From the NCBI GenBank assembly GCA_031271405.1, contig JAISVT010000057.1, positions 1 through 47,992 on the forward strand: a stretch of DNA of 47,992 nt, given 5' to 3'. Positions 23,318 through 47,600 of the stretch are shown here, piece after piece. The DNA comes from Candidatus Endomicrobium macrotermitis (GTDB taxonomy: Bacteria > Elusimicrobiota > Endomicrobiia > Endomicrobiales > Endomicrobiaceae). The position numbers were made by a program, and so were the translations under genes. Position 1 is the first letter of the stretch; every line of letters starts with the position of its first letter. The notes below the pieces were generated by a model. The model did not search any database and was not told where the DNA came from. It worked only from the letters and a program-made list of their open reading frames with translations.

Positions 23318-23346
23318 TTGACAAAAAGGAGGTTTCATATTATAAG
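23318..23346 (+). promoter_or_regulatory. sigma-70 promoter of the giant-paralogue operon
   Basis: A perfect -35 TTGACA (23318-23323), a 17-base spacer and TATAAG (23341-23346). A GAGGTGA ribosome binding site lies six bases before the ATG at 23374. This is the best promoter match in the window. Confidence 0.75.
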
Positions 23347-23373: not shown

Positions 23374-26300
23374 ATGCGAATAAGCAAAAAAATTACGAAT
23401 GCCCTCTCATTAGCCGTCCTAGTATGCTTTTGCAATGCTTTTATATTTGCCGATATTGCAAAAGCAGTTTCATCCCCGTCGCAAAATATACGCTTTAACA
23501 TGTCATTTTTAGATTCTATTCACCCTGATTTTCACATGAATTCTGAAGGCAAAAACAATAATGTCTTTATAGTACAGGATCTGCACGGAGATAAATACGT
23601 ACAAAAGAGTATAAACGACATAATAAAATATTTAAATGAAAACAATAATATCGGCGAAATATTGCTTGAAGGGGCTTCCGGACGCGAAAACCATACATGG
23701 CTTTCAGGAATTAACAATAAACGCAAAAACGAAGTTTTAAACGACTTGCTCGACAATTCACTTCTTACCGGAGTAGAATATTATATTTTATCCAATACCG
23801 AAGAAAAAAAGTTAAAAGGTTTAGAAAACGAATACTTGCACTTCTCGAACATAAAACGCCTGCATGACATACAAAATATCCAGCCGGAAATTACACAAGA
23901 ACTTTCATTGATGAAGACGGCAATCAACGAGCGTCAAAAAAATGTTTATTCTTACGAGAATAAACGGCTGCTGAATTTCGAAGAGAGATATTTAAGCGGC
24001 AAATTAGGCACCGTGGATTTTTACGGCCGCCTTATCGAAAGCGCTGCCAAAATAAACGACGAAAAAATGTCGGCAAACTTAGAAATTTTAAGTGAAGCGA
24101 TGGAAGCGTTTAAAATTCCGCCTAAATTGCACATAGATTCGGTCAATAAAGAATTGACAAGTCTTATAAAAAGGCTTCAAAGCGAACTGCCTTACAAAAC
24201 TTATGTTAAAATGGCTGAGAAAACAAAAAAATTTTCCGATATGCATATTACATACGCGGCATTGAACGAATTACTCAAAGAAAATTATATTAATGAGTAC
24301 GATAACTTAAGACAATATTTATCCTACTATACGGGACAGCGCAACATAGACAGACTGGATCTGATAAAAGCCGAAGAATACGTAGTCGATGAATTATACA
24401 AGTACAACTCCATGACGAATTCGGAAATGTCTTTAGCAGCGTTCAGCCGCGCATTCAGACATTTCGAAAGATATTTCAAAGCCGAAGCTACAAATTTTGA
24501 CTACGATTATACGGCCTTTTTCGGCGCGGAAAATTTTATAAAGTTATACTCGGAAAAATTTAATACCGAAATAGAGTCAATAAAATCGAACAAAGACCTT
24601 TATGAACAATATTATGCGGCAAATATCGTAAGGAACATTCTTTTTGCGGAAAAAATAGAAGAAAGCCTGAAAAAGCATAACGGAAAAGTCATTGCCGTTA
24701 TGGGAGGATTTCATACCGACGGCGTAGGGAAAATACTAAAAAGCAAAAATATTATTCACAACATAGTGACCCCGAGCTTATTTCAAACGTCTCAGGATGC
24801 CAAACATACTTACATGACTCATTTAAAAAGCATCGTGGAACGGCAAACGCTGGCGCTGCAGATATATCTGGAACGCGGGGATACGCAGCAAATTATGCAG
24901 CTTTTTCAGGCTAAATATACGGAACTTCTTGCAAGCCGCGGATTAAACGCGGCATTGTCCGAATTGAACGCCTATCTGAATCTTATAAGCAATGTTACCG
25001 AGGACGATATAGAGTCGGTTACCGGAAGCAGACCCGAAAGATTTTCAAAAATACAAGACGCGTCCGTATCGTTAAACCCCGACAAAAGCATAAAGATACA
25101 ATTTACTTCCGTTTCAGACGGCAGGACCGAAAAAATCAAATTTGACATTGCATCAGAACGTTCAAAAGGCGGATATGCTTCCATAGCGGGCTGGGCTTCT
25201 GACAAAATTACAAGGTTTGCCGCTTTTTGGGAATGGATATACATACTGCCATTTTCAAGCTTCGCTTTCGGTTCAAAAACTTTAAACAAGGCATTAAGTA
25301 CAAAACTGGATTCCGACATTTCTATAGAAAAGAGTTCCGTACGTGAAAGAATGCTGGATATCGCCTCTTTGTTTCTTTTGTTCGGCATATTTGCTTTTTC
25401 GCCCCCCGTAGCGGTCGGGGCTTATGTCTTAATAAGAGCTGCGTTATTTTCAAGCCTGCACAAGGTTTATTCCGGCAACATTAAGCAGCATATAAGACTT
25501 TTCTTTTTAGGCACTATATTCTGGATTCCCGTCATAGGCCCGTTTGTTCATTACGCTTATAATGAATCTTTTTCAGACAGGCCGGCGAGCGTAGTTCAAA
25601 ATACCGCGCAGGCAAAACCTAAAATAGATTTCACCGTAACTTCGCTTGAAAGTCTTATAGACAAATTTAGAGCGGAAAATTCCAGGCAAGTTACCGTAAA
25701 TGACGTAATGAGCGACTCTTTTTCCCTTTTAATGCTGGACAACCTGAAACGCTCGATATCAATGATACAAACAGATGAAGATTTAATGCAGGCTTTTGAA
25801 TTGCTGGCATTTCTGGTACAAGCGAAAACATGGCTTTCCGCGGGAACAGACTCTTTAAGCTTAATCGGGCCGTATCAGCTTAGAGACAACAATCTTTCAA
25901 GTTACGAGCGTTCATGGCTTAATACGAAAGACGCCGAAGATGCAATAGCAAAAGCTTTGAATTTTTTTATTGAAAGAGAAAACAACGCATATTTATTTAA
26001 AAACATAGAGTCGCTTTACCATCTTTATTTCGCTGGGCAGAAAGAAAAACTGAAAATTTACGTTCAGGGAGACATCGAATACATTTCTAAATACCAAAGC
26101 GGAAAAAATCAAAACAGTACCGTAGAGAATTCGGATTTACAGGACGCGGATAAAATATTTTTCCGGGCAGACGGAATTGACGATGTTTTCGTAGAAATGG
26201 AATCGATTTTGAAGCAGTACGTAGAGAATGGAACCGAGCAGGAAATGAAATCCGCGATGGAGCGATATAAAAATATTGATAAAAACGGCAGAGAAGAACG

Positions 26301-28755
26301 GCGGCTTTTCGAAGAAAAGTTTAAAGAAGTATTTTTTGAACTTAACGATATAAGAGCTCTTACCGACGAACAAAGAGAAAAACTACGAGGCTACTATGAG
26401 ACGTACGGCATCAGAATATATGTGCTCGCACCCGTTTCTTCCGTTTTCGGTTCAAGCGCATTTTTAAAGAGGATGTTTTCCGGCAAACCGTACATGATGT
26501 TCAGCAATTACTCCATGCCCAACGAAACGGCAGGCAATAGAGTATTTACCGAAAGAAACTTCGGAGGACGCACCAACAATTATATAAGAAATTTAATTTT
26601 CATGCTGCTTAATGTCGAACAAAACGGAGCCTCTATGAGCAGCGACAAATATTATACTCCCGGAGACAGAATGGATGAAGAAGGCAGCGAAACATACAGA
26701 AACCTGTTATCTTTCAGAGCGCAGCAGGCATTTGAACTTATAGAAAACAATATGATTTTATTTATGGGAAATCAGCCCTTTTTGAAATCCGAACTGCAGA
26801 GTTTTCACGGGGAATTTTATGATATTTTATACAAAGCATCCGAAAGCGGCAGACTTATACCCAAAGCCGTATTAGACGCATTGGAAGCAATGAGAGCTTT
26901 ATTTGTATTTAATACTTTAAAAGCATCGGAATTTCATATAAAAGAACAAAGTTTGCAGAAAAAACTCAAATATATTGAAGATGAATACACCGCGTTTGCT
27001 TTAACGAATATCGCTGACGGCAAAGAAGTTGACATTGACACGAAAGACAGTATGATTTCATCAATGCTGTTTACAAGCGGCATAGGAGTATTTATTTCTT
27101 TGGTTGATCACGTTTTACGCACAAACGGCATCGAGAACTCCAGTATTATAGCTAACTTGTCGCATTCGTATTACGAATATGCTCCGTATTTGAATGCGGT
27201 AGGATTAGGCGACTCCAGAGCAAATGTAATACTTAATTTTGACGGAGTTAAAACAAATCTGGATAATGTACAAATCGATTACGGTAAAGCCAACCTTGTG
27301 CTTTTGGAGCCGGCATATAACAGATATGATATGGACACCGAAGACATTGAAGGATTTCTCCGTAAAGTTTTGGATATTGACGCTTCCACCGGTAAACCTA
27401 AAAGAGTTTTTGACAAACCTTTTTATGTCTGTATAGACAGAACCGCAGTCCCTTTTTGGAATATTTTTGATATAATCGATACATTACCTGACAATTTTCA
27501 CATAGTTGTTTATAACAGTTTACAAAAATTACATGAAAATTCGTGGGAGCTTACAAGCGGAGGCGGCGCTTTGTTAATCTCCGGGAATAATCTCGCAACG
27601 CACAAAAAATTTTCCGAAGAAATGAGCGAAAGCAGAAATGCGACGGGACAGATGCCGGATGCCTATGCGGTTAATGCGTTTGAAAAGATCTTCGCTTTGG
27701 GAAGAAACACCATCCTGCAAAGGATAAAAAGGATTACCGGGAATGCCGAAGCCATAGCAAAAGCCATGGCAAGAGCCGCCGAAATAAAAAATAACCGGTA
27801 TTTCGATGAAATAGTATCTCACGTAAGCATAAACAAGCAGACAAGCGGCGAGGCAAGTCTGCAAGTGCCTTTCATAGCGATAAATCCTAAAAGTAAATAT
27901 GCTTTTGATAAAGACATCAGGAAAGGCACATCCGCCCGCAACGATGCAATTGCCGATTTGCTTGCTCTTTTAAGAAAAAACGGAATATATGACGCCGCTC
28001 AAAGAAACAGTTACGGTTTCGATTCGCTTACTTTGGCCGCTTACGACGGAGACGCCGTAAGGATATCAGTAGGAGATTATCCTCCGGAAATAGCAGACAA
28101 AATAGCTTCGGTACTATCCGACTATACTTTACAAGTTCTTACTTTAAGCGAATTTTCTGATAATCCGGACACAATGGATGCGGATGCCGCCGCCGAACAA
28201 ATTATGCAGATATTGAGAGATCCGAACAACTATTATGAAACCCTTATGTTTAGAAATCACATTTCGAGGCTTTTAATCGTATCCCATCAAAAAGTCAGCG
28301 AAGGCAAAGAATCGTATAAAAAATTATTCGTTGCCGCAAGCATAGCTTTCGGGATGATAGATTTCAACGGCTTCAAAGAACATGAAAAAAACTACTTTAA
28401 GCGTAAAAGGGATGAGAGCACAAAAGGAATTCCTTCGTACAAGAAAATGCTTGCAGCTATATTAACGGAAAACTCCGGAGGGGAACGTGAGTTTTTTATG
28501 GAAGCTTTGAATACTGCAAAAACAATGCAGCCGGGTAAAATGACAGTCTTTATGGAAAATTACGGTATAGATAAAATATTGCGGGGATTTAACGTCTATA
28601 CGGAATATTTGAGTGATGCAGCAAATACAAATGACGCAACAGCGGCCGTCTTGGCGGATTTAGAGGTAATAAAAAACGATTCTGACACAGGCATAGCGGA
28701 AAGCACACGCATAATCACTCCAAAATTCTTCGCAGGAATCTTAAAAGCAGCCTAA
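23374..28755 (+). CDS. giant exported protein: TIKI/TraB/EreA-like N-terminal domain plus PLP (cystathionine gamma-synthase-like) C-terminal domain
   Basis: 1793 residues. A signal peptide (residues 1-30, AKA cleavage site) leads into a domain with QDLHGD (H71), ILLEG (E99) and MGGFH (H447). This H-E-H spacing is that of the TraB/EreA/ChaN/TIKI superfamily. Hydrophobic helices lie near 616-632, 663-690 and 705-728. From about 1200 to 1590 the chain reads like a type I PLP enzyme of the Cys/Met family: MLFTSGIGV (1231-1239), LLEPAYN, IDRT (D1355, pyridine partner), NSLQK (K1385, Schiff-base position), SGGGALL and VRISVG (R1563, substrate carboxylate). A standard enzyme is about 400 residues. 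It is the first gene of an operon with a strong promoter. Domain calls come from motif reading by eye; the activity is unknown. Confidence 0.65.
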   Translation: MRISKKITNALSLAVLVCFCNAFIFADIAKAVSSPSQNIRFNMSFLDSIHPDFHMNSEGKNNNVFIVQDLHGDKYVQKSINDIIKYLNENNNIGEILLEGASGRENHTWLSGINNKRKNEVLNDLLDNSLLTGVEYYILSNTEEKKLKGLENEYLHFSNIKRLHDIQNIQPEITQELSLMKTAINERQKNVYSYENKRLLNFEERYLSGKLGTVDFYGRLIESAAKINDEKMSANLEILSEAMEAFKIPPKLHIDSVNKELTSLIKRLQSELPYKTYVKMAEKTKKFSDMHITYAALNELLKENYINEYDNLRQYLSYYTGQRNIDRLDLIKAEEYVVDELYKYNSMTNSEMSLAAFSRAFRHFERYFKAEATNFDYDYTAFFGAENFIKLYSEKFNTEIESIKSNKDLYEQYYAANIVRNILFAEKIEESLKKHNGKVIAVMGGFHTDGVGKILKSKNIIHNIVTPSLFQTSQDAKHTYMTHLKSIVERQTLALQIYLERGDTQQIMQLFQAKYTELLASRGLNAALSELNAYLNLISNVTEDDIESVTGSRPERFSKIQDASVSLNPDKSIKIQFTSVSDGRTEKIKFDIASERSKGGYASIAGWASDKITRFAAFWEWIYILPFSSFAFGSKTLNKALSTKLDSDISIEKSSVRERMLDIASLFLLFGIFAFSPPVAVGAYVLIRAALFSSLHKVYSGNIKQHIRLFFLGTIFWIPVIGPFVHYAYNESFSDRPASVVQNTAQAKPKIDFTVTSLESLIDKFRAENSRQVTVNDVMSDSFSLLMLDNLKRSISMIQTDEDLMQAFELLAFLVQAKTWLSAGTDSLSLIGPYQLRDNNLSSYERSWLNTKDAEDAIAKALNFFIERENNAYLFKNIESLYHLYFAGQKEKLKIYVQGDIEYISKYQSGKNQNSTVENSDLQDADKIFFRADGIDDVFVEMESILKQYVENGTEQEMKSAMERYKNIDKNGREERRLFEEKFKEVFFELNDIRALTDEQREKLRGYYETYGIRIYVLAPVSSVFGSSAFLKRMFSGKPYMMFSNYSMPNETAGNRVFTERNFGGRTNNYIRNLIFMLLNVEQNGASMSSDKYYTPGDRMDEEGSETYRNLLSFRAQQAFELIENNMILFMGNQPFLKSELQSFHGEFYDILYKASESGRLIPKAVLDALEAMRALFVFNTLKASEFHIKEQSLQKKLKYIEDEYTAFALTNIADGKEVDIDTKDSMISSMLFTSGIGVFISLVDHVLRTNGIENSSIIANLSHSYYEYAPYLNAVGLGDSRANVILNFDGVKTNLDNVQIDYGKANLVLLEPAYNRYDMDTEDIEGFLRKVLDIDASTGKPKRVFDKPFYVCIDRTAVPFWNIFDIIDTLPDNFHIVVYNSLQKLHENSWELTSGGGALLISGNNLATHKKFSEEMSESRNATGQMPDAYAVNAFEKIFALGRNTILQRIKRITGNAEAIAKAMARAAEIKNNRYFDEIVSHVSINKQTSGEASLQVPFIAINPKSKYAFDKDIRKGTSARNDAIADLLALLRKNGIYDAAQRNSYGFDSLTLAAYDGDAVRISVGDYPPEIADKIASVLSDYTLQVLTLSEFSDNPDTMDADAAAEQIMQILRDPNNYYETLMFRNHISRLLIVSHQKVSEGKESYKKLFVAASIAFGMIDFNGFKEHEKNYFKRKRDESTKGIPSYKKMLAAILTENSGGEREFFMEALNTAKTMQPGKMTVFMENYGIDKILRGFNVYTEYLSDAANTNDATAAVLADLEVIKNDSDTGIAESTRIITPKFFAGILKAA

Positions 28756-31700
28756 TGAAAAAAACACCGTTTATTGTAACATTATCTTCATTTTTACTGA
28801 ATATCATATCTCCCGTATCGGCGCAGATAAGCGTTATCGGCGCGGATTACGACGTTATGCCCGCTTATTATTACGAGCAAAACTACAATGGTAAAAAAAA
28901 CATAGACATTTACCTTATAGAAGATTTGCATGCAAATTTAAGCGCCCAAAAAAGCATAAGCCGAATCATGGAATTTTTGGACAAAAACAGCGATATTACG
29001 GCAATTCTTATGGAGGGTACCGCAAAAACCGTTAACCCGTCGGTATTTTCTTACGGCAAAATACCGAACAAAAACAGGTTTTTGGACTACCTTTTAGATT
29101 CTTCGTTAATTAACGGCGTAGAATACTACGCTTTAAAAAACGATAAAGAAAGCAAAATTTCAGGGCTTGAAGACAAAACACTTTATGACGAAAACATAAA
29201 CAAACTCAAACTTATTTTCGATTCCAAGCGGGAAGTCAATAAATATCTGTCGGAAATGCAAAAAGATTTATCGCAAATTCAAAATGATTTATATTCTCCC
29301 GAAAACAAAGAAATTCTAAAAATGCAGAAAAAGCACGCGGCTTCGGCCGTAACGGATCTCAAATATTTCGGTTTTCTTTTAGACAATGCCGGGCACATAG
29401 CCGATAAGCCTTTATACATCGAAGAAGACTGTTACGCTTTAAGCGGTTATATATCCATGCAAAAAGGTTTCGGTAAAATAAATTATAAGAAATTAAACGA
29501 AGAAATTAATAATTTTTTTATTGCCGCAAAAGAGGTTTTCCCGTATGCAGTATATAAAGACTTGGCAGACTCGTTCAATAAATATGACAATCCGCTGATT
29601 TTCTGTTCTATACTTTCAAATATAATAAATGACAACAATCTTCGAGGTTACGGCGAAATAAAAAAAATAGGCGCGTTTTATTCCGTAAAATCGGATACGG
29701 ATTATAAAATTCTGCTCAAAGCGCAAAAAAGAATAGAAAAATTCATTTTCCTGTCCCATGCCTTAAGTCCGGAAGAAAAACGGCTTATAATATTAAGCGA
29801 CGCATTTGACAAGTACAAAAGCTATTACGGCGCTTCAGCAACCGAATACGATTACGAATTTATAAAAGGTTTCGGCGTCGGCGGCTTTGAAGAAGAATGG
29901 CTGAAAACTGTAAACAAGAAGGCCGTTTTTATCGACAAGAAGTTTGCGCTATTATATAAAAACTATTATGACAACAATATTGCGCGAAACAATGTTTTTA
30001 TGAAAAATATTCTCGATGCTTTAAAAAGCCGCGATGGAGAAGGTTCGCTGGCAATGCTTTGCGGCGGGTTTCACAGCGGCGTAATGAAAGAATTCTTTGA
30101 AGAAAACGGCATTTCGTACTGCATAATAACTCCGGATGTAAATGAATATTCCGGCGAAGACAGAACAGTTTATGAGAAATTGATTTCCGAAAACGGCGGA
30201 ATATCGGGTTCGGCAATCCCTCCCAAAGTTTTTATCGGCAAGGATCATTCTTTACAGATACTGGATATTTTAAGCTCCGTATATAATAAAACTCCCGATA
30301 AACAAACGGCTTTAAAATCGATTTCAGACGCGGCAAAAGAATTAAACGCCGGCAACATTGAGATTACGCCGTTTGCCGACAGCGGCGGTACGCCGTACGT
30401 ATCGTTAGAGTATCCGGACGGATACGGCGTTACTTTTAACATCGAAAGCAGACGGATTGTAAATCCTGAAGATTTAAATATCAACCGGATAAACGCCGAC
30501 ATCAAAGAAAAGATTGAATTAAAAAGAGTTAAGCGAATCATCGAAAGCCTTAAAAACAATATTTACTTTCAGCAAAGTTTCTATCAAAATTCATTAAATA
30601 CATTTCTTGAAGACATCGGTTCCGCACAATCACGGCAATATTCGCCGTATGAAATATTTAAAATTATTTTATTTATGGTGCAATCCGCAACATATATCGC
30701 TCCCGCAAAGTTAAACAACATAAGGGGACCCTTACAAAACGTACGTAATTCTTACGAAAGGTCTTATATAGATTACACCGCGGAAGAGGCGCTTATAGGA
30801 GACAAATTAAACTATTTGCTTTCAGAATCACACGGCGCAACTGGTCATTGCAATGTATCGTTATTTAAAAACAAAGCCGGCATGTTTGCCTCGTTTATTT
30901 TAAAATCCGACGCGGCAAGTTCAAAGATTAGAATATTTTCCGACGTAAATTACGACATATTTTCTGGAAATTTAGGCATTGCCCGCGAAGAAAAACATGA
31001 AGACGCCGATATCATTATAAAATCCGCACAGCCTTCCCAGGAGCACATAACGGAACAGTTGAAACTTTATAAAGACTCTAATGCAAAAATCATATTTATA
31101 GACGTAGCTTCGGGAGAGGGAGAAATAGGAGCTTTCAGCGCTAAATTCAGGGATTTTCTGTCTTCATACGATAAACGCGTATTTATAGTTTTGGGATTAG
31201 ACAGCGTCAAAAGCCTTTTTGCAGACATAAGCAAAGTTTTGCCGGACACTCCTTGCATTGTGGTTTCAAACAAACCCATCGCAAGAAACAAAAACGGTCT
31301 TTTTATAGATCAGCGATATGGTTTTAAAATAAGTTACTTTGTAAAGAATGCCGTAGTCATGATATTTAGCCGTATCAACGGATTTGACAATAAAATTTCA
31401 GGTTTTGCCGGCAAAATCGCAAATGTAAAAAAAGCAACCGGGCTGCGTGTAAGCGACAATACGATGCGCAATGTTAACGGCCTCATTAAAAATTTTGAAG
31501 ATATCATCGATAATGCCGGCAATGAAAACAAGCCGCTTACGGAAATATTAAGCGGCTCCATACTGCCGTATTTAAAAGACATATCCGTAAAAATAGACAA
31601 AAATGCTTTGACCAAGGAAGAATTTTTATCTTTTCAAGATGATTACAGAGTTCTTGCAAGTTTTAAAAATATCATTAATGCAGACTTGTTTTTTGACAAC

Positions 31701-33485
31701 GCAGACTATGACTCAAGGCTAAAAGACACGGAAAACCGATATTTAAATTTAGGCATACTTAACAATGCCGGTTTTTTAAACGCCGAAGCAATGATTTTTC
31801 CCAGCGCGACAAGCGCGTCAAATACGTTTTTGGCATATATTGCCGGCTTACAAAAAGACGTAAATATTTATGTTCCGCAAAATGCTTATTATGAATTCAG
31901 CGCTATTATAAACTTCGACAACATTTTAAATAGAAACAGTTTTAAAAAAACCGTGACCAGATTTTCCGACAAGCCGGGAATTCTTGACGCAAAAACGGTA
32001 AATGCCATGTTTTTTGAACCTATAGAAAACCGTCCGGATATGAGAATGGAAGACATAAGAAGTTTTTTCAGGGAAAACATCAATAATAAATCTTTCAAGG
32101 AAGATGTTTATATCTTCATAGACAACACTTTAAGCCCGTTTATGTCGGCAGATGATTTTACAGAAGGAGTTAAACCCGATAAAAACGTACATATCGTTTT
32201 TTATTGCAGCCTGCATAAACTGCATCAAAACGGATTGGAACTGGCATCGGCCGGAGGAGTTATTTTATTATCCGAAAATAAGGATAAAAATTTACAATTT
32301 TATAACAGTCTGGCTTTTTTACGAAAAAATCTAGGTTATATGCCTGATAAGTACGCCATTACAGTCACTGAAAGCATGCTGAACGACGGCAATATGCCGG
32401 AAATGATAAGATCAAAACTTTCAAACACATCAAACCTCATAGCCGGAATCACGAATGCTCTTGAGCGTTCGGGAGTGGTTTCCGGAGAAATAATAAGTTT
32501 CCCCACGGTTGCGCAGCATCCCTCCTATCAAATGTTTAAAAATGAAGTTTCGTTAAATCCGCTGTTCGGCGCTCCTTTCTTTTTTATAAAAACAAACAGA
32601 AGTTATATTAGATTTATAGAAAAAGACCTAAAAACATTGCTTGAATCTTCCGGAATTTACGCTTTTAATTTACGCAACAGTTTCGGATTTAACGATTTGA
32701 CGATGGTACGTGTGGGAGATTCCGTAAGGGTATCGGTGGGTTTGCATAATGAATTGACTTTGGACTGTATTAAAGACGTTTTTGCAGCATATGCGGAGCT
32801 TTTATACATTGCGAACTCCGGTCAAGCATATGATGAAAAATACGATACCGTAAAAAGGTTAACTTCTTTGGTCATAAATAACGATGCCATAACAGATTTG
32901 GATATTACAAGCCATATTCTTTTAAAAAATATAAACTATTCGGAAAAAGAGTTAAATAGAGACAGTTTATCCGAAAAAGAGAAGACGTTCTACGGAGCTC
33001 TATTTGCCGTAAGCTATGTTATGTTATATGCGCAAAACAACGTTTCCTTTGCCGAGGCAACAAACGTTTCTATTGAAACATTAAAACCCTCAAGGAGAGC
33101 GGCTTTTTATAACATACTTGATGAACTGATAGAAAGCAACGAAATCGATGCATTGAAAATGACCGCATCGGTTATCGAGACATTTAAAGGAAAGAGCAGT
33201 ATGAAAAAATTTTTGGGAACCCTGTCAAAGCGTTTTGCGGCGTCGAATGAGTTTATAAACAGTTTAGATTTGTCAGATTTTGATGATATAGAAACTGCAA
33301 ATGCCTCTTATACAATAAATAAAAAGCTATCCGCATGGGTTGAAAACGAAAATACCGAAGGCGGTAATGCCGCAGGTGCATTGGTTACGGTTCTGACTGC
33401 TCCCGCGGATATACGGCAAAATACAATAACAAACTCCGTTTTAGAAAATACCGCGACTGTCAACGGTATATTAACTTCTTCATAA
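28755..33485 (+). CDS. giant exported protein: paralogue of the preceding TIKI-like/PLP-like fusion
   Basis: 1576 residues. It overlaps the previous stop by one base (TAATG) and has no ribosome binding site, so translation is probably coupled. A signal peptide ends near VSA-QIS. The TIKI-like set is EDLHAN (H59), LMEG (E87) and CGGFH (H440). The PLP-like domain (about 985-1350) is closer to the canonical enzyme than in the sister: YDSRL, MFFEPIEN, FIDNTLSPF (D1123), CSLHK (K1155), SAGGVILL, SFGFNDL and VRVSVG (R1325). Both proteins align along their whole length, for example at SYERS and in the block ending SYFVKN/NYIRN. This copy lacks the hydrophobic insert of the first, so its PLP domain should lie outside the cytoplasm unless the leader is an anchor. 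Confidence 0.65.
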   Translation: MKKTPFIVTLSSFLLNIISPVSAQISVIGADYDVMPAYYYEQNYNGKKNIDIYLIEDLHANLSAQKSISRIMEFLDKNSDITAILMEGTAKTVNPSVFSYGKIPNKNRFLDYLLDSSLINGVEYYALKNDKESKISGLEDKTLYDENINKLKLIFDSKREVNKYLSEMQKDLSQIQNDLYSPENKEILKMQKKHAASAVTDLKYFGFLLDNAGHIADKPLYIEEDCYALSGYISMQKGFGKINYKKLNEEINNFFIAAKEVFPYAVYKDLADSFNKYDNPLIFCSILSNIINDNNLRGYGEIKKIGAFYSVKSDTDYKILLKAQKRIEKFIFLSHALSPEEKRLIILSDAFDKYKSYYGASATEYDYEFIKGFGVGGFEEEWLKTVNKKAVFIDKKFALLYKNYYDNNIARNNVFMKNILDALKSRDGEGSLAMLCGGFHSGVMKEFFEENGISYCIITPDVNEYSGEDRTVYEKLISENGGISGSAIPPKVFIGKDHSLQILDILSSVYNKTPDKQTALKSISDAAKELNAGNIEITPFADSGGTPYVSLEYPDGYGVTFNIESRRIVNPEDLNINRINADIKEKIELKRVKRIIESLKNNIYFQQSFYQNSLNTFLEDIGSAQSRQYSPYEIFKIILFMVQSATYIAPAKLNNIRGPLQNVRNSYERSYIDYTAEEALIGDKLNYLLSESHGATGHCNVSLFKNKAGMFASFILKSDAASSKIRIFSDVNYDIFSGNLGIAREEKHEDADIIIKSAQPSQEHITEQLKLYKDSNAKIIFIDVASGEGEIGAFSAKFRDFLSSYDKRVFIVLGLDSVKSLFADISKVLPDTPCIVVSNKPIARNKNGLFIDQRYGFKISYFVKNAVVMIFSRINGFDNKISGFAGKIANVKKATGLRVSDNTMRNVNGLIKNFEDIIDNAGNENKPLTEILSGSILPYLKDISVKIDKNALTKEEFLSFQDDYRVLASFKNIINADLFFDNADYDSRLKDTENRYLNLGILNNAGFLNAEAMIFPSATSASNTFLAYIAGLQKDVNIYVPQNAYYEFSAIINFDNILNRNSFKKTVTRFSDKPGILDAKTVNAMFFEPIENRPDMRMEDIRSFFRENINNKSFKEDVYIFIDNTLSPFMSADDFTEGVKPDKNVHIVFYCSLHKLHQNGLELASAGGVILLSENKDKNLQFYNSLAFLRKNLGYMPDKYAITVTESMLNDGNMPEMIRSKLSNTSNLIAGITNALERSGVVSGEIISFPTVAQHPSYQMFKNEVSLNPLFGAPFFFIKTNRSYIRFIEKDLKTLLESSGIYAFNLRNSFGFNDLTMVRVGDSVRVSVGLHNELTLDCIKDVFAAYAELLYIANSGQAYDEKYDTVKRLTSLVINNDAITDLDITSHILLKNINYSEKELNRDSLSEKEKTFYGALFAVSYVMLYAQNNVSFAEATNVSIETLKPSRRAAFYNILDELIESNEIDALKMTASVIETFKGKSSMKKFLGTLSKRFAASNEFINSLDLSDFDDIETANASYTINKKLSAWVENENTEGGNAAGALVTVLTAPADIRQNTITNSVLENTATVNGILTSS

Positions 33486-33502
33486 AATCGATAAGCGATA
33501 CA

Positions 33503-33546
33503 AAAAAAGCCGGCAGACTAATTATATAGTCTGCCGGCTTTTTTAC
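33503..33546 (+). terminator. bidirectional rho-independent terminator
   Basis: AAAGCCGGCAGACT and AGTCTGCCGGCTTT form a 14-bp perfect stem with an AATTATAT loop, flanked by A- and T-tracts. It ends the giant-paralogue operon and, read on the minus strand, the MBL hydrolase gene. Confidence 0.92.
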
Positions 33547-38653: not shown

Positions 38654-41600
38654 TTATGCCGCGGATAGGATGTCTCTTATTGCTTTTGTCGCAGTAACGC
38701 CGGAACGTTTTGCAAAATCTTTGGCATCTATTTTTGATACCGCGTATTCTACCAGTACCATCATAGCCGCAATAGCCTCTTGCTCAACGGCAGCAGACTC
38801 AGCAGAAGCAATAAGCATTTCACCTTTGCTCTCCAGCTCCATGAAATAACTCTTAAGCGCAGAATTATTAATAATATCAGTCTGTACAGAATCTCCAAGC
38901 TTCTCCATAGCCATTTGCTTAAGCTGTTCAATATTAACGGCATTACCGTTAAGCACACTTGCAAGCAGCCCCCTGCCAAGTAATGCGGCAACCTTACTTT
39001 CCACCTCATTTCCTTTCTTAAGCATTGATTGCATAAACAGTTCTTTTGAAATTCCTAGATCTTCAAGGAAGCGTTGTTCCATATAATTTTCAGCCGCTCC
39101 CATAATGTACCCTCTTGCTCTGTTCACTCTTACCGATTCGCTTCCGGAACCTTCAAGCAGCTTTTTAACTACTCCGCGAATTACATTACTTGCTCCGGCG
39201 TTTTCAAGAGCCGACTTAATAGCATCGGGAGTTACATCGCTGCTTGAAAGAATAGTACTGAGGGCATTCACATTCGTAAATCCAAATTCCGATTTTTGTT
39301 TGCCTACATTAGCTTTACGGTATCCGTTTCTAAAAGCCGCAAGTTCTTCTTTAATGTTTTTCGGAGTTAAGCGTTTACCGACATTTTCGTAGTAGTCTTC
39401 TATAATATCCGCTCCTTTAGCTGCAGAAATTATACTATCATCTATGAGCTCTCCTCGTTTAGAACTTGTATTTATAAGATGATTCTTAAACGGCACCATG
39501 TTATCTACAGATATTCTCTCCAAATCGGCAATTGCCTTCTGAATTTTATCCGCACTATCTAATACCGAGACATCAAGAGTTATATTGTAAATCCCAGCGT
39601 CAAAACATGCTTTAACATTGGCTTCAAAATCAGAAGAATTTGCATTGACAGCCGGAGCTATTTCAATACCGCTGGCTCTCAATACCGCTATTGCTTCTAC
39701 TAAAGCAGGGTCAACTTTGCCTGACGAAATTCTGTCACCGGTACTTACCGCCAAAATCGTAGCATCACTCTTCTTACGGTCGACGCTGATTTGCTTCACG
39801 ATACTTGACACGGTTGTTGCTCTGCCTGACAAAAGAGACGAACCGATTATTCTTTCTCTGATATTAGCTTGCCTTTCTATATCCAAAGCTTCAAAGAAAG
39901 CTTCAGAACCAAACTCCCTGTCTGCGAAAGCATTGGCTATATCAACCACGCCGCTACCAGCGGATTCTTCGACATTGACTGAACTGTTTTTATTTACCAT
40001 GTCAACCGCAGACACTCCGCCTATGCCCAAACGGTTTTGTAATAGCGGATTTTCGTTGATGTTGTAAGCAAATGCTGCAAAAGCAGTTTCATACAATCTT
40101 TCCTTTTCCGAGGCCGACATTTCTAATCCGTCTATATTTTTTACGCGCATTACTATGTCATAAACCACATTTCCGTCACTATTTCTGACAACTTCTCCAT
40201 TTTCAAATCTTGCTACAAAATATTGTTCTGCAACAAAAGCTCTTTTTCCCTTTTCACCTGTCCGGACAAAGCTAAAGCCGGTATTAGGCATTATCTTTCT
40301 AACTTCCCATATTCCGGTTTCGGAATTGTATCTCTGCGACAACGCAGTTTCGCTTCCGTATACGACTGTGGCAATATTGCGGTTTTGCGCATAAGTCGCC
40401 TGATGCTGCCGGGCAGTTTCACTGTTCGAATTATTTAAACCGGCATTTACAAGTATTACTTCGTTGCTTCTGAACCTGTTTATTTCTCCTTTAAATCCAA
40501 ATATATTTTCCGCAGCCTGAGCCGAAGCGTCTCTTGTCTTTGCCGCTGTGACAGGCTCTTTAGCATATCCGACAGAGGCGGAAACAATAGGATATCTGCT
40601 TGCATAGTCAAACCTCGGAGCCAGATCGCTTATGTACCTTCTATCGGTCAAGTTGCTCAAATCCCTGATTTTTTTACCGATAGTTCTTGGAGTAGATTTG
40701 CGTATATCTTCCGGAATATCGGCAACTGTCGCATCTTCGGGTAAATACGCATTATCTTTAAGAATTTTGAGCAATTCATAATCTTTGACAAGAGCATTAA
40801 ATTCTTTAGTAGCCAAGCCTAAAATTTCTATATTTTTTTCGGCACTGGCTTCAATCAATTTATTTACCTTTCTCTCAAGGGCTGCGACTGTCATTTTAGG
40901 GATATTTTCTAAAGCTTCTACATAGTTATAATCTTCACGGCCGATATATCTTTTCAGCTGTTCAATTTTTTCAGCTATGCCGGCAGCTTCTTTTTCCGCT
41001 GCTGTTGCCGCTTTCGCTTCTTCAATTGCTTTTCTATCTGCGACCCTCTTTTCTGCCGCAGCTCTTTTTTCTGCCTCTGCTTTTTCAACTTCTCCAGATG
41101 CCTGTTCTGCAGATTTCTGCCCGGCCGCTTTTTCAATAAATTCTATGACATTGCCTCCGCTGTCGATAATTCTTATACCGTCTGCATCAACGGTTACCGT
41201 TACGTCTTCCAAGACAGTTCTGCCGTTAAGCGCTCCCGGATAAATTTCTTCTTCCGTTGCGGTATTATTTATAAATCTGACGTCGCCGGCAAGAGTCAAA
41301 TCGGATAAATCGAATTTTCCGTCTATGCTGAGAGTTTTGATTCTGCTCGTGTCAAGATATGTCATCTTGTCAAACATAGAGAACAAATAAACTCCTAAAT
41401 CGTTATTTTTAGACTGAACTCCGCCGTTTACCACTATTTGATTGTCCCTTACTTCTCCTCCGTATAAGAAACCCAGGATATCCCCTACGGCTTTATAAGG
41501 AGAAAACCCTATTTCTTCGCGCTGTTCTGCATTTGCATAAGCTACTTTCACTAACGGGGTACCCTTGCCAAGCAACTTTTCCATAGTGCTATTCAAAGAA

Positions 41601-44600
41601 GCGTCAGTTCTTCTCTCTCTTTGCAAACTGATATTAGTCCAAGTAAGCACCTGACCTATAGCCCATTCCATTTTACTGAAGAAATCGCCTTCAGGATTGC
41701 TTTCTGTTACCGTTTTCGGGTCAACATTAATAACGGGAGGCGCCATCAATTCAAATGTTTTCTGAACGCCTTTATCCTGAATTAACTGACCGAACAATAT
41801 GCCGAGAGTAAATACGTCCCACTGAGAATTATTCGTATTAAACAACGCCGCATTTAACTTACTCTGAGGTCTGAATAATCCGCTTATATGCTGGTCAAAC
41901 GCTTTAAGTTCTTTTTCTCCCATTGTATCTTTTGTCTTCAATCCCAAAGTTTCGAATATGGAACCAAGCGTATAAGAAGCAAAATTCGCAACTTCTATCA
42001 AGAACATAAATGTCCCGGTTGCAAGTTTTAAGAACATCAGCGTTCCGCCTTTGGCGTCTATTCCTATTCTTGTCGCAAAATACATGGTAATTCCGCCAAA
42101 ATTGCCTTTAGCGCCGGCATTAACTGCATCGCCGTTAGCAAATACAACAGAACCCAATTCCTTCCTTGCGTCAGCCATCTGTTCCGGGGTCATCTTGCTG
42201 AAATCATATCCCTTTTCTATCATATAATCATTAACTCTTTTCACTATTTGCATCATTACCGTAAAAAATACGGGGCCATGGCTTCCGTGAGTCATTTTTT
42301 TAAGTATCGGCGTTTCAAAATCGTTTGCGTCTTTATCCAATTCCATATTCAGGCTGTATGTACCGTCAGAGTTTTTCTGCCAGTCAGGGATTCTGTCGGA
42401 CATCATAATCCCTTCACGGGCACCCTCTCCGAGAACCTGCGCTAAAACTCCGGAGTTGAAAATTTCAGGATTCAAGCTCTTCAACAATTGCGCATTAGCA
42501 TTATCCGCAGGATTCGAACCTACAACCTGCATGATTGCCTGCTGACCGCCGTTATTAGCTGCCGCGGCAGCCTTAATATCTATAATCTTTGCAAATTTAA
42601 ACACATCAATTTCTTCATCGCCGACTTTTACTTTTGTCTGTATTAACAACGGCGTATCCGTGGCTTTTCCGGTTAACTCCGGCACATTAATATCAGTGCC
42701 GTTTATTTTCTTTCTTACTACCGGAGCTTTCTTTTTATCAAGTTTAAATCCGTCGCCTTCAGTTTCATAAAAATCGGACGGGTTTATTCTTGTAAAACCG
42801 TATTTTGCGAGTCTTGCTACAATGTCAGACGCATAATGACTATCCAATTTTTTACCGAATAAATTAAGATTCTTAGCAATATCGGACAAGGCCAACACGG
42901 CTTCTTTATCTCCGGCATTTATTGCATTCTGCAAAGCTTCCATATACTTATTATACGCGTATATTACGGGATGCCTGCCCATTACCCCGGCGCCGACTCC
43001 GCCGTTTAGCCACAAAACTACCATCGGAGCTATTTCCGAAACCGCTTGTTTTAATTCATCGTAAGGGCGGATGTCTATATCTTCGGACTCTCTGGAAGCA
43101 ATAATTTCAGCGCCTTCTTCATCCGAAGAAGCAATCGCAATGTCCTGAACCCCCGTTTCCAATCGCTCTAATCCGTCAATATCCCTTAAACCTAAAGAAT
43201 TAAGCACAAGCAATCTCCATACCAGAACGCCTGTTTCATCATATCCGTATTCGGAAAGTGTTCCTGTTTCATCATACGAATAATACTTCATTACTCTTAA
43301 AGCTTCGGCTAAGGCGTTGACTCTGGCCGTATTTTCCTCTCTTAACCGTTTTACGGTTTCTTCATCTTTTTTATGTTCATCGGTTATTCTTGTAAGCTTT
43401 ATATCGCCCATGGCTTTATACAAAGCATTTACGTCTTGCGGAGTTTTCTCGCTCGCTTTATACGCTTCTATCGCGTCGTTCAATGCTTTTATCGATGCGT
43501 CTTGAACGGCTGATTCTTCCGTAACCGAAGGTTCCGATTCACCGGCTTTCGGAGTATAAACCTCTTCAACTTCAGGATCAACCGTAAATGTCGCTTTGCT
43601 GTGATCCGCACTTAAATCAACCTTTGTTATGCGCTGTATTGTAATCTTACCGTTTGCATTTACCGTAACTTTAAAATTCTCTAATGTGCTCCTTCTTAAA
43701 TTTTCAGGCGAGAATACAAAGTTAGGATCTCCGGAATTATTCTCAAACCAAATATTGCCTTTTAACGTCAGATTTCTTATTCTTCCGTCTCTTGTTAATT
43801 TAAATACTTCAACTCCGCTAAAATCATTGCCTACTAATGTGGTGTACGCTGCTGCCGCCATTTCCTGCGCTTTGTCGCTTTCCGAAACATCTACTATCGC
43901 TTTAGGCGATTGGCCTTGAATTTTATTGGCAAGCACCGTATAACCGAATTTAATGGACGACGGCAAGAATCCCGTAAACTCATCGTCTCTTTGATTTTTA
44001 TCGGCAACAACTACATCTACAAACTTGTTGCCTTCACCAAATAACGCATTCATGACGGCATTGATTCTGTTGCCTGCCTCTGTCCCCGAATATCTTAAAA
44101 ATTCCAAATTCATTCCCAAAGACAACAAAAATTGCCCGGATGCCAGCTCTACATTTATCTCCGAACCCGTATCTTCAAGTATCGGGAACGGAACAATAAA
44201 ATTATTATATTGTTCGGGCGTTAATAATGTTTTGAGTTCCGAAAGAATTACGCCTAAACTAAAAGAATTGAAAGAAGAACCGTTTGTATTAAACGGCTGG
44301 GCTATATTGCCCATTCCCAATTCTTCCATATTGGAGTTAACGCTTGCAGAATCTGCTTGTGATTTTGTATCGCCAAGCTCAAACAGCCACGGAAAAACAA
44401 TATTTCCGTCTTTATCTATTGTTAAAACGTCTCTTTCTATAAGCGTTTCTATTTTTCTTATTGTTAACTCGCTGCCGACAGCGGCACCTAACAGCACTTT
44501 TCCATAATTCAAAAACTCTTCTTTTGTAAATTTCTTAAATCCGAGAACTCCGCCTTTTCTGTCTTGCGCTTCTCTCGTGGCAAAAAACATAACTGCTCTT

Positions 44601-47600
44601 GCGTTTATACCCTGACGGGGTCTTGAATTTTGTATTTCCGCGCTTGCAATGCTGATATCGCCGCTGGAGTTTTGCAAGGCAGTAATTGCTCTGCGCGTCA
44701 TTCTCGTAACTTCTCTTCCGTTCAACGTTCCATTTGCTACGTTTATCAGCCTTTGCGCAAGTAAGAAGAATGTTCCGCCGTGATTCAAATGTTTTGTTTT
44801 AGTCGATGAAAAATGCAATATTCTTCTTTTATTTTCATCTTTCTTCTCCGAAACCACTCTGAAATTATTGCCGGCAATAATGTATCTGTTATCAGCGGCA
44901 AAACTTCCAAGCAATCTATCGATTAAATCATCATTTCCCATACCTGCCAGCGTTTCTCTGGAAGGCAATATGGATTCGTCACCTGCTGCAGTAAGTATAA
45001 CTATAGAGTCTCCGTTTTCTTTCGCTTTGGCAACTCTGTCATCCATTATGCTGACAAATGTTTTTTCGCCTGCTTTATCGGTTATTACCGCAATATCGCT
45101 GGCTTTGCCGGCAAGGTCGGGAACAAGTTCCGTTCTCCACCACCTGTCCTGATCATCTTGCTGCCAGCCTTCTTCTTCTTCAGAGCCGGCAGGTCTGGAA
45201 ACGTACAGTACCGAAACCGTTTTATTAGGCGACTTTAAGCCTTTTTCATCTATTTTACCTTCATCCCTCATTTTTATCTTACCGTCTTCCTGCCGGTAAA
45301 AATCTTCCCAACCTATTCTGGGAAATCTGTACACCTTATTTATTTTTCCCAACTCTTCATCAGTCAAAGTTACGCCGAATAAATCTCCTTGTTTGGCAAG
45401 TCTGTCTAAAATCCCCAGCATATCTCTATCGTTAGCTTCCTCCGCCGCTTCCCTTGCAATAGTCCATTTTGCCAATGCAAATATTATAGGATGCCTTCCC
45501 TTTACTGCTTCGCCGGTACCCGCGCTTAACAATAAATTTATCAATTTATGCTTTTCTTCAGGTCTTAACGAATTATAATAACTTCTGTATCTGTCTAATG
45601 TTATAGTTAACCTCTTTGTCAGCCTTTCGGTGTCCGTATCGCGCGCCGCAGGCACAAAGTTTGCATCGGGCATATTGCCTAAATCGTATATTACATGGTT
45701 GTTAGAAACAATAGCGTCTGACATACCCGACGTATACAAAATATTCTGCATCCAGAAATCTACCCAATCTTGCTCATATTCGTAATGGACGCCGTTTACA
45801 TAATATCCTATTAATTTATACGCTTCGCCTATAGCCTTAACTTTAGCTATATTTTCTTCGGAACGGTCATTTTCAGTAAACTCAACACTAGCTATATATC
45901 TGCGGACAATGTTGTGCAGGCTTTCTTTTTTAACTCTGCTTGTTGTTGAAGTTGCTACATATTTCCTAAGGACAGTGTAAAGATCCTTTACCGATTGATC
46001 ACTGATTTTCGATGCTATCAATACAAACGGCTGCAGTTTTTCATTATCTTCTTCAATTTGTTTTCTGTTTATTAATCCTTTGACAATGCCTAACAAAGAA
46101 CTAACCGCCGTCAATCTTTGAGTTTCTTCCGAAGCTGCTACCGCTGCGTCCTGCACTGCCTGATCAGGCACTTCTCCAATTTCACCGAATCCGTCTTCTT
46201 CATCAACTATAACTTCATCTTGAGCATCAGAGGAAATAGACGCTTCAGGGCGCAAAGAAAGACCTTCCGAATCTGCTTGCCCTGAAGTTGAAGAACTACC
46301 GTCTGTATGTGTAGGAGAGGCAGATTCTTCAGGTTGTGCCTGAACCGAGCCTGGAACTTGCCTGAAAATAATGTTTCCGGCTCCATTTTCCTCTACTGTA
46401 AAAATTCCGCCGTACCTTCTCTCAAGCGCCATTCTATAGCGTTCAACTCTACCAACATTTATTATGCCTTTTAACATTGCAATTATTAGGGCACCTTTAA
46501 CTTCCAGTTTAAAAACATTATCTTCCAGTTTAAGTTCATTAGTTAAAGACTCAGCTTCTCCTTCTGAAATCAAACCTTCAATCTCTTGTGCGGTTAAAGG
46601 TGTCTTGACAAGTATGCCGTTTTCATATGTTACATTTATTCCCATCCTTCTATATGAGCCGATAACATCTCCGGCAACAATGTTATTCAAGTCTTCGTTA
46701 TCTAACGGGGTATATGCCTCATTGTCCATCAGCAAATCATAAAAAAACTGATTCGTTAAAACTTTTTTTCTCATTGCTTCCGAAGATTTTGCATTATCGG
46801 CTTTATTCGCAGCCATTTTTATGATTGACATGCCGGCTACAAACAAAATTACAATCAGTCCGGCAAGCATAAAACTGAGGCCAACGATTACAGATAACGC
46901 GGCTATAACGATACCTGCTCCAATCAATAAATTACCCCGAATGTTATTTTTAAAATTTTCGACGAAACTTTTAAAATCTTTAACATCAATCAGATTTGAT
47001 GCAAAAGCCAACACAAGCAGTCCAAATGCAACAATTGAGGGAACTGAAAGAATAGCTGTAGCGGAAGAAAATAAAATGGCTGCTGCAAAAGTAGCAACAG
47101 CGCTAAAAGCAAATGAATATTTTGACTTTATTGTTTGGCCAAGGCTTAAAAGACCGTTTCTTCTTCCGGCATCAATGACCCTGTAAGAAAGCGTATGGTT
47201 TATGTTTATGCCGAAAGCATTTCTTATAACAGCACCCATTAATTCTTTACTTGCGAACGTGCCCTTTGAATCAAAACCAAAATCAAAGAAAGTGGTCTGA
47301 ATATCGCCTTTTATTTGCGAAATCTCATTATAAATCATTTTTTCAAAATTATTATTCGCAAGCCAATCCTGCATTTCATTGTAATCTTTAATTCTCAAAT
47401 CAATCTGGCTTTCAATCTGTTCAAGAGTAAGTGTACTCTGATTATCTCGTATCCAACTTGATTGTTCATAAAAACCTTTAGCATTCAGCCAAGCTCTCAT
47501 CAAAAACAAAGTTTCCGATTCGCTTCTTGTCCCGATCACCTCAGAACTGGTCTTAATCACAGCTAAATCATTTTGTTCAAGAGCTTTTTTGAAATTTTCA

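Follow-up and report, generated by a model that had tools for sequence, protein, structure and literature searches.

Two adjacent genes for very large, probably exported proteins on a contig of Candidatus Endomicrobium macrotermitis raise the question of whether they form a system of their own or belong to something larger. The window analysed here, 47,992 nucleotides long, is the entire contig C33 of its genome (G000; 1.887 Mb, 99.66% complete), and it was compared with related loci from Endomicrobia of the phylum Elusimicrobiota, among them two genomes of the same genus, G002 and G003. A sequence-only reading of the window had described two open reading frames (ORFs), and both lie exactly where it had placed them, at 23374–28755 (P1, 1793 amino acids, aa) and 28755–33485 (P2, 1576 aa) on the + strand. 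It had taken them for a dedicated two-component system, a view that did not hold, since the pair constitutes two of about 20 paralogues with a common N-terminal domain, hereafter the header, most of them with unrelated cargo. We consider the chances evenly balanced that P1 and P2 are members of a lineage-specific Endomicrobia family of giant exported proteins, in which a fixed frame with exchangeable contents would serve extracytoplasmic display or sorting. The family and its C-terminal tail are well supported, while the mechanism is put forward as a proposal.

Header searches returned 21 matches in the window genome, 19 in G003 and 14 in G002. The members recovered from the window genome number 19, several of them cut by contig ends, and comprise 42,486 aa, which corresponds to about 6.8% of the genome. 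Contigs C26, C43, C44, C51 and C6 of this genome (L222, L224–L227) begin or end inside ORFs finishing in ILSAA or ILAAA, so the true member count is probably slightly above 19. The window holds a third member itself, a giant ORF (38654–47992, − strand; 3109 aa or longer) with a single cysteine and no Pfam match, whose 5′ end is cut by the contig end; it is counted here because it ends in AIRDILSAA, its N-terminus lying outside the assembly. A similar C-terminus is found in G003 (L229), just upstream of the P1 orthologue. Also in G003, two contigs (C9 with L196, C20 with L198) end inside identically starting header sequence, suggesting either that a header was duplicated recently or that the assembly broke where headers are repeated. 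Within the class, 96 genomes were sampled and 49 of them carry the header, with ORFs of up to 12,656 aa. A homologue of the region resembling enzymes dependent on pyridoxal phosphate (PLP) occurs in just 4 of 199 relatives. A header protein is absent from G001, of the same genus as the window genome, and from G025.

The header, which spans residues 40–500 of P1 (23491–24873, +) and 30–480 of P2 (28842–30194, +), had been assigned to the TraB/EreA/ChaN superfamily, and this is borne out in part. Across 34 aligned headers the residues D69, L70, H71, Q77, I80, E99, G100, E135, N417, R420, G444, G445, H447 and P467 (P1 numbering) are invariant. They include the 2His/2acid motif of the Tiki superfamily, composed of D69-x-H71 within QDLH (23578–23586, +), E99 followed by Gly (23668–23670, +) and H447 of the GGFH motif (G444–H447, 24703–24714, +). 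The first acidic residue is thus Asp, where the Tiki motif of RRSP reads E-x-H, E, H (2His/2Glu; PMC6254334). In the AlphaFold2 (AF2) model of the P1 header, with a mean predicted local distance difference test score (pLDDT) of 80, H71, E99 and H447 are placed where strands of a beta-alpha core end, and about 280 residues of helical insertion separate strand 3 of this core from strand 4. The ChaN family PF04187 scores 14–17 bits on P1, below the curated cut-off of 27.7 bits; it matches four of seven headers of a wider set (best E 1e-6) and exceeds the cut-off with 31.2 bits in one header from another family of the phylum (G127). The header of about 450 residues is therefore, judged by its sequence, probably a divergent, ChaN-like domain of the Tiki superfamily. 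It has in common with ChaN, EreA/EreB, TraB/PrgY and MARTX RRSP the acidic-x-His, Glu and GxxH elements, which the model puts at core strand ends, and a conserved Arg, and differs from them in the Asp of the first motif, in the modelled helical insertion and in forming the N-terminus of giant multidomain proteins.

Most header proteins also have a common C-terminal tail with the consensus [I/M]-L-x-A-A-COOH ("ILSAA"), which reads ILKAA in P1 (28738–28752, +) and, as a variant, ILTSS in P2 (33468–33482, +). Among 43 complete header proteins, Leu occupies position −4 in 39, Ala or Ser positions −2 and −1 in 39 each, and Ile, Met, Leu or Val position −5 in 41, with mostly Ile, Val or Tyr at −8. 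The pattern [IVLM][LM]x[AS][AS]-COOH closes 37 of these 43 proteins compared to 5 of the 561 remaining complete frames that reach 200 aa, and four of those five (L192, L197, L200, L214) are header proteins by profile. The tail counts rest on a genome-wide DNA pattern together with fetched loci. Fragments recognised at contig starts by their tail alone are the 3′ remainders of ORFs that the contig edge truncates. As a bare DNA pattern the tail is not enriched genome-wide (30 matches, 33 in the reversed control), and the evidence for it is its association with header proteins and ORFs. The cargo regions of the paralogues in the window genome are similar to one another just in a trio with the PLP-type domain and in one weak pair, so that the tail is common to otherwise unrelated C-termini. 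In this respect it resembles the LPXTG, PEP-CTERM and T9SS CTD tags, likewise conserved short C-termini on otherwise unrelated exported proteins, from which it differs in having neither a transmembrane helix nor a basic cluster and in placing its motif at the extreme end. Ten tails compared with NCBIfam gave no match to a curated model of the CTERM or sorting type. Giant header proteins from two further families within the phylum (G116, G127; L215–L220) end in ALAESA, AVASSA, AIARNA or VIAQQA, a different tail that is possibly related to ILSAA.

Between header and tail the proteins diverge strongly. According to Pfam, one paralogue of 3723 aa in the window genome carries PGI (8e-166), PGM and a UDPGP-type domain, while others carry CBM48 with alpha-amylase, a phosphohistidine domain followed by PPDK_N, HD, metallophosphatase, RelA_SpoT (below its cut-off), CofD with HAD, or six AAA_5 domains. 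The order of phosphohistidine domain and PPDK_N is presumably that of glucan water dikinases, and the AAA repeats of L061 gave no match in the PDB at 1e-6. Cargo in related genomes comprises protein kinase, GH94, cNMP-binding, SecA-like DEAD, TPR and starch synthase-like domains as well as GA modules. The headers of L054 (C21:49583–62875 of the window genome), L203 of G002 and L189 of G003 share 76–80% identity, and the C-terminal parts of these proteins can be aligned as well, but their middles differ: PGI is present in L054 alone, whose alignment reaches the PGM-containing part in G002 and just the last 650 residues in G003. Similarly, the header of the amylase protein L050 has reciprocal best matches in G002 and G003 that carry unrelated cargo (coverage 6–8%), and the dikinase-type cargo of G003 rides on a different header. 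Cargo is unchanged across species in P1, P2, L048, L059 and L061. As read from these alignments, cargo has in several cases been replaced from one species to another, with the two ends persisting. A standalone pgi gene lies directly upstream of the L054-type gene in the window genome, in G002 (C46) and in G003 (C3). The cargo PGIs of the window genome and G002 form their own clade, being 63% identical to one another and 44–49% identical to the standalone enzymes, so that capture, if it took place from the neighbouring gene, would be old.

The dedicated two-protein system of TIKI and PLP domains is very improbable and, as a complete account, largely refuted: about 20 proteins carry the header, most of them joined to unrelated cargo, and the same PLP-type domain is found beyond the pair, on a third protein of the window genome (C63, 2467 aa) and on relatives, even though the coupled pair itself is conserved in G003. 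Cargo replacement without obvious pathway logic, together with the extreme sizes within the family, would also suit surface-layer bricks, meaning enzyme folds that were captured to build a giant layer of the envelope and have lost their catalytic function. We regard this as quite improbable, given that catalytic motifs are retained in the PGI, isoamylase-like and phosphohistidine domains (assessed by motif, in the last two by eye), with the PROSITE motifs of the cargo PGI among them, that catalytic residues are likewise kept in the PLP domains, and that nonsynonymous divergence (dN) is low throughout the PLP domain.

For the pair itself, the sequence-only reading had proposed a PLP-type domain at the C-terminal side, and this assignment was supported. 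The domains comprise residues 1201–1600 of P1 (26974–28173, +) and 985–1360 of P2 (31707–32834, +). An alignment of nine such domains shows an invariant SG-loop Ser, YYE, Asp, SxxK Lys and VRxSVG Arg, so that the predicted catalytic set, in P1 the candidate Schiff-base lysine K1385 (SLQK; 27526–27528, +), the pyridine-binding D1355, the stacking Y1266/Y1267 and the carboxylate-binding R1563, is invariant throughout; the corresponding candidate lysine of P2 is K1155 (SLHK; 32217–32219, +). Scanned directly against Pfam and NCBIfam, P1 and P2 yielded just sub-threshold hints of ChaN and cystathionine gamma-lyase, with PF01053 not matched in Pfam, and single-protein sequence searches of the PDB returned nothing usable. 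In profile searches of the PDB the best matches were two PLP enzymes of Cys/Met type (E 0.027 and 0.048). An hhalign comparison of the PLP alignment with twelve Cys/Met enzymes of related genomes gave a probability of 90.8% (E 1.2e-6, 285 columns, about 19% identity), compared to the expected 0.1% for a control against ChaN, and a sister domain in G002 (C22) exceeded the 27-bit cut-off of PF01053 with 28.9 bits. Foldseek, run on an AF2 model of low confidence, listed 50 matches, all of them fold-type-I PLP enzymes and 24 with E <= 0.001. The cargo of P1 and P2 is thus assigned to the fold-type-I PLP enzymes of the cystathionine gamma-synthase/lyase class, with key residues intact and, we infer, with enzymatic activity. 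It follows MetB, MetC and cystathionine gamma-lyase (PF01053) in the order of SG loop, Tyr, EP, IDxT, SxxK and VRxSVG, and departs from them in its low profile identity, its fusion behind an exported header and its rarity among relatives. In G002, L065 (C22, 2703–9686, −) holds two copies of the PLP-type domain in a single protein, showing that tandem duplication of cargo occurs.

Family members have signal peptides ending in AxA, and their cysteine content is 0.22% compared to 1.07% in 16 ordinary window proteins, a fivefold depletion relative to a small control of 6,660 aa from one contig; both features make export out of the cytoplasm probable. It could be argued that the proteins are instead mega-enzymes of the inner membrane or cytoplasm, held by an uncleaved N-terminal anchor with some cargo remaining cytoplasmic, and that ILSAA acts as an ssrA-like degradation tag for ClpXP. 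The cytoplasmic-type catalytic motifs of the cargo, the odd number of hydrophobic segments in some members and the resemblance of the tail to the LAA end of tmRNA tags are in line with this. The tag of this genome could not be read for comparison with ILSAA, the tmRNA search giving a weak match at a contig edge where ARAGORN called no gene. Canonical AxA ends and the strong cysteine depletion speak against such an arrangement, as do the redundant standalone pgi in the same genome and the absence of a second membrane segment from L054, and a degradation tag on nearly every member would be hard to explain. We therefore consider it unlikely.

The distribution of the family constrains its role further. 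Genus g8 has small genomes and fits Endomicrobiellum, an endosymbiont (PMC11257099); here the header occurs in 12 of 42 genomes with 1–4 copies each, some of them containing stops. The loss is inflated by the incompleteness of many g8 genomes, although complete ones such as G010 and G025 are without a header too. Other Endomicrobiales have kept it in 35 of 42 genomes, mostly in many copies. This near-loss argues against a role inside host cells and favours one in the envelope or surroundings of free-living cells. One g8 header gene (G072:C20:17063–18763) is interrupted by five in-frame stops, as would fit a family that is decaying in endosymbionts. Effectors injected into the host were rejected as the leading model because of the loss in the small-genome lineage. 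More broadly, the family could represent polymorphic effectors, whose header and tail deliver the protein into a protist or bacterium, where ATP- or UTP-dependent cargo would act on the metabolism of the victim. With polymorphic toxins (PMC3482391) it has in common a conserved trafficking module and exchangeable enzymatic domains; conserved ends alongside cargo turnover, nucleotide-dependent cargo with RelA/SpoT, HD and kinase domains, a hydrophobic hairpin ahead of the cargo and the occurrence of Tiki folds in toxins such as RRSP (PMC6254334) would all fit. In contrast to the toxin layout, in which a variable C-terminal tip is followed by an immunity gene, the variable part here lies between two conserved ends and much cargo is of metabolic type. 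The extreme C-terminus is conserved, and at P1/P2 a terminator-like repeat follows and no immunity-type gene lies beside the pair; an injection machine was not identified, with no search aimed at one. The retention outside g8, in part in genomes named as non-gut isolates, is likewise difficult to reconcile with effectors, to which we assign a low probability.

We propose a model in which the frame would consist of a signal peptide and the Tiki/ChaN-like header at one end and the [I/M]-L-x-A-A-COOH signal at the other, with linkers, often a hydrophobic hairpin and the paralogue-specific cargo in between. The giant protein would be exported by Sec. A specific partner on the far side of the membrane, for instance a sorting factor or a tail protease of PDZ type, would then recognise its tail, and the header would process the protein or hold it at the envelope, so that enzymes would come to be displayed in the periplasm or at the cell surface. 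With somewhat less confidence than we place in the family frame itself, rather below an even chance, we suggest a hitherto unrecognised Endomicrobia sorting system, in which ILSAA-COOH and the Tiki header together route, process or display giant proteins with species-exchanged cargo, thereby placing enzyme sets for sugar-phosphate interconversion and PLP chemistry outside the own cytoplasm or in a partner cell. The common ends, the replaced cargo, the intact catalytic motifs and the purifying selection are shown; export, tail reading and the role of the header we infer.

Several observations weigh against this model. UDP-sugar pyrophosphorylase, dikinase-like, AAA and RelA/SpoT cargo normally requires ATP or UTP, which the periplasm does not contain. 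Neither a machine for sorting nor a protein that reads the tail was identified, a few header proteins have no tail or variants such as ILSKA, ILTKA and LLACA, and the cysteine control was limited in size. For the header, Foldseek found no fold match in the PDB and hhalign no significant match to ChaN, the latter perhaps owing to the large helical insertion, so that the superfamily call finds no support from these two comparisons. The AF2 model of the PLP domain is weak, with a pLDDT of 47 and TM-scores of about 0.2, and in the hhalign alignment with Cys/Met enzymes the lysine falls one column off in an ungapped stretch, for which reason the role of the candidate lysine is regarded as likely only.

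P1 and P2 themselves are genuine proteins that, by comparison with their G003 orthologues, are constrained by purifying selection. Header (70% and 67% identity for P1 and P2, respectively) and PLP domain (66% and 71%) are their best conserved regions, with dN of 0.18–0.24 and synonymous divergence (dS) above 1. The motifs of the sequence-only reading are real; by residue they were located in P1 as QDLH 68, GGFH 444, FTSG 1233, YYEY 1266, IDRT 1354, SLQKLH 1382 and VRISVG 1562 and in P2 as EDLH 56, GGFH 437, FPSA 1015, YYEF 1045, IDNT 1122, SLHKLH 1152 and VRVSVG 1324. That reading had missed the hydrophobic hairpin of P1 (residues 663–681 and 707–725; 25360–25548, +), the common tail and the window's third family member. 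Of the two signal peptides it had claimed, that of P1 is clear (23374–23469, +; KK, hydrophobic residues 10–28, AKA), while that of P2 is weaker, with no 19-residue window above the hydropathy threshold and a visible AxA-like site, PVSA. The stop of P1 and the start of P2 have one base in common (TAATG), and their G003 orthologues are coupled in the same manner (TAGTG); because of this translational coupling the two diverged PLP domains probably function jointly, perhaps in a heteromer. Upstream, a promoter-like TTGACA-17-TATAAG (23318–23346, +), a consensus match only, and AGGTGA precede the ATG of P1. Downstream, a perfect inverted repeat at about 33502–33545, resembling a bidirectional terminator, separates the pair from a convergent gene of metallo-beta-lactamase fold. 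Promoter and terminator had been described as strong and perfect; both are visible in the sequence, but a consensus scan yielded no more such sites than shuffled sequences did.

The architecture had been thought undescribed, and we agree: no family in Pfam, NCBIfam or the PDB describes it, the family going unrecognised beyond weak ChaN matches, and header, tail and cargo exchange were not found in the literature, a search that did not extend to subscription papers and preprints. In the parts available to us, earlier work describes an abundance of proteins above 5000 aa in Elusimicrobiota, with no function assigned to them (PMC11573180), and giant ORFs of Omnitrophota as poorly conserved with few domains (PMC10066038). 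The proteins described here agree with these reports in phylum, size and scarcity of annotated domains, whereas a common header, a common tail and cargo exchange are not described in those parts. A text search of a comparative Endomicrobia study (PMC11257099) found no mention of giant proteins.

For the organism, our results imply that about 7% of the genome is invested in one family, and they raise the question of why metabolic enzymes with intact active sites sit in an exported frame. That the family decays in a lineage which has small genomes and appears to be endosymbiotic links it to a life outside host cells. If the proposal is correct, header and ILSAA tail would constitute a simple sequence test for finding such proteins in assemblies, and if the two ends indeed form a sorting frame, they would jointly explain many uncharacterised huge proteins of the phylum.
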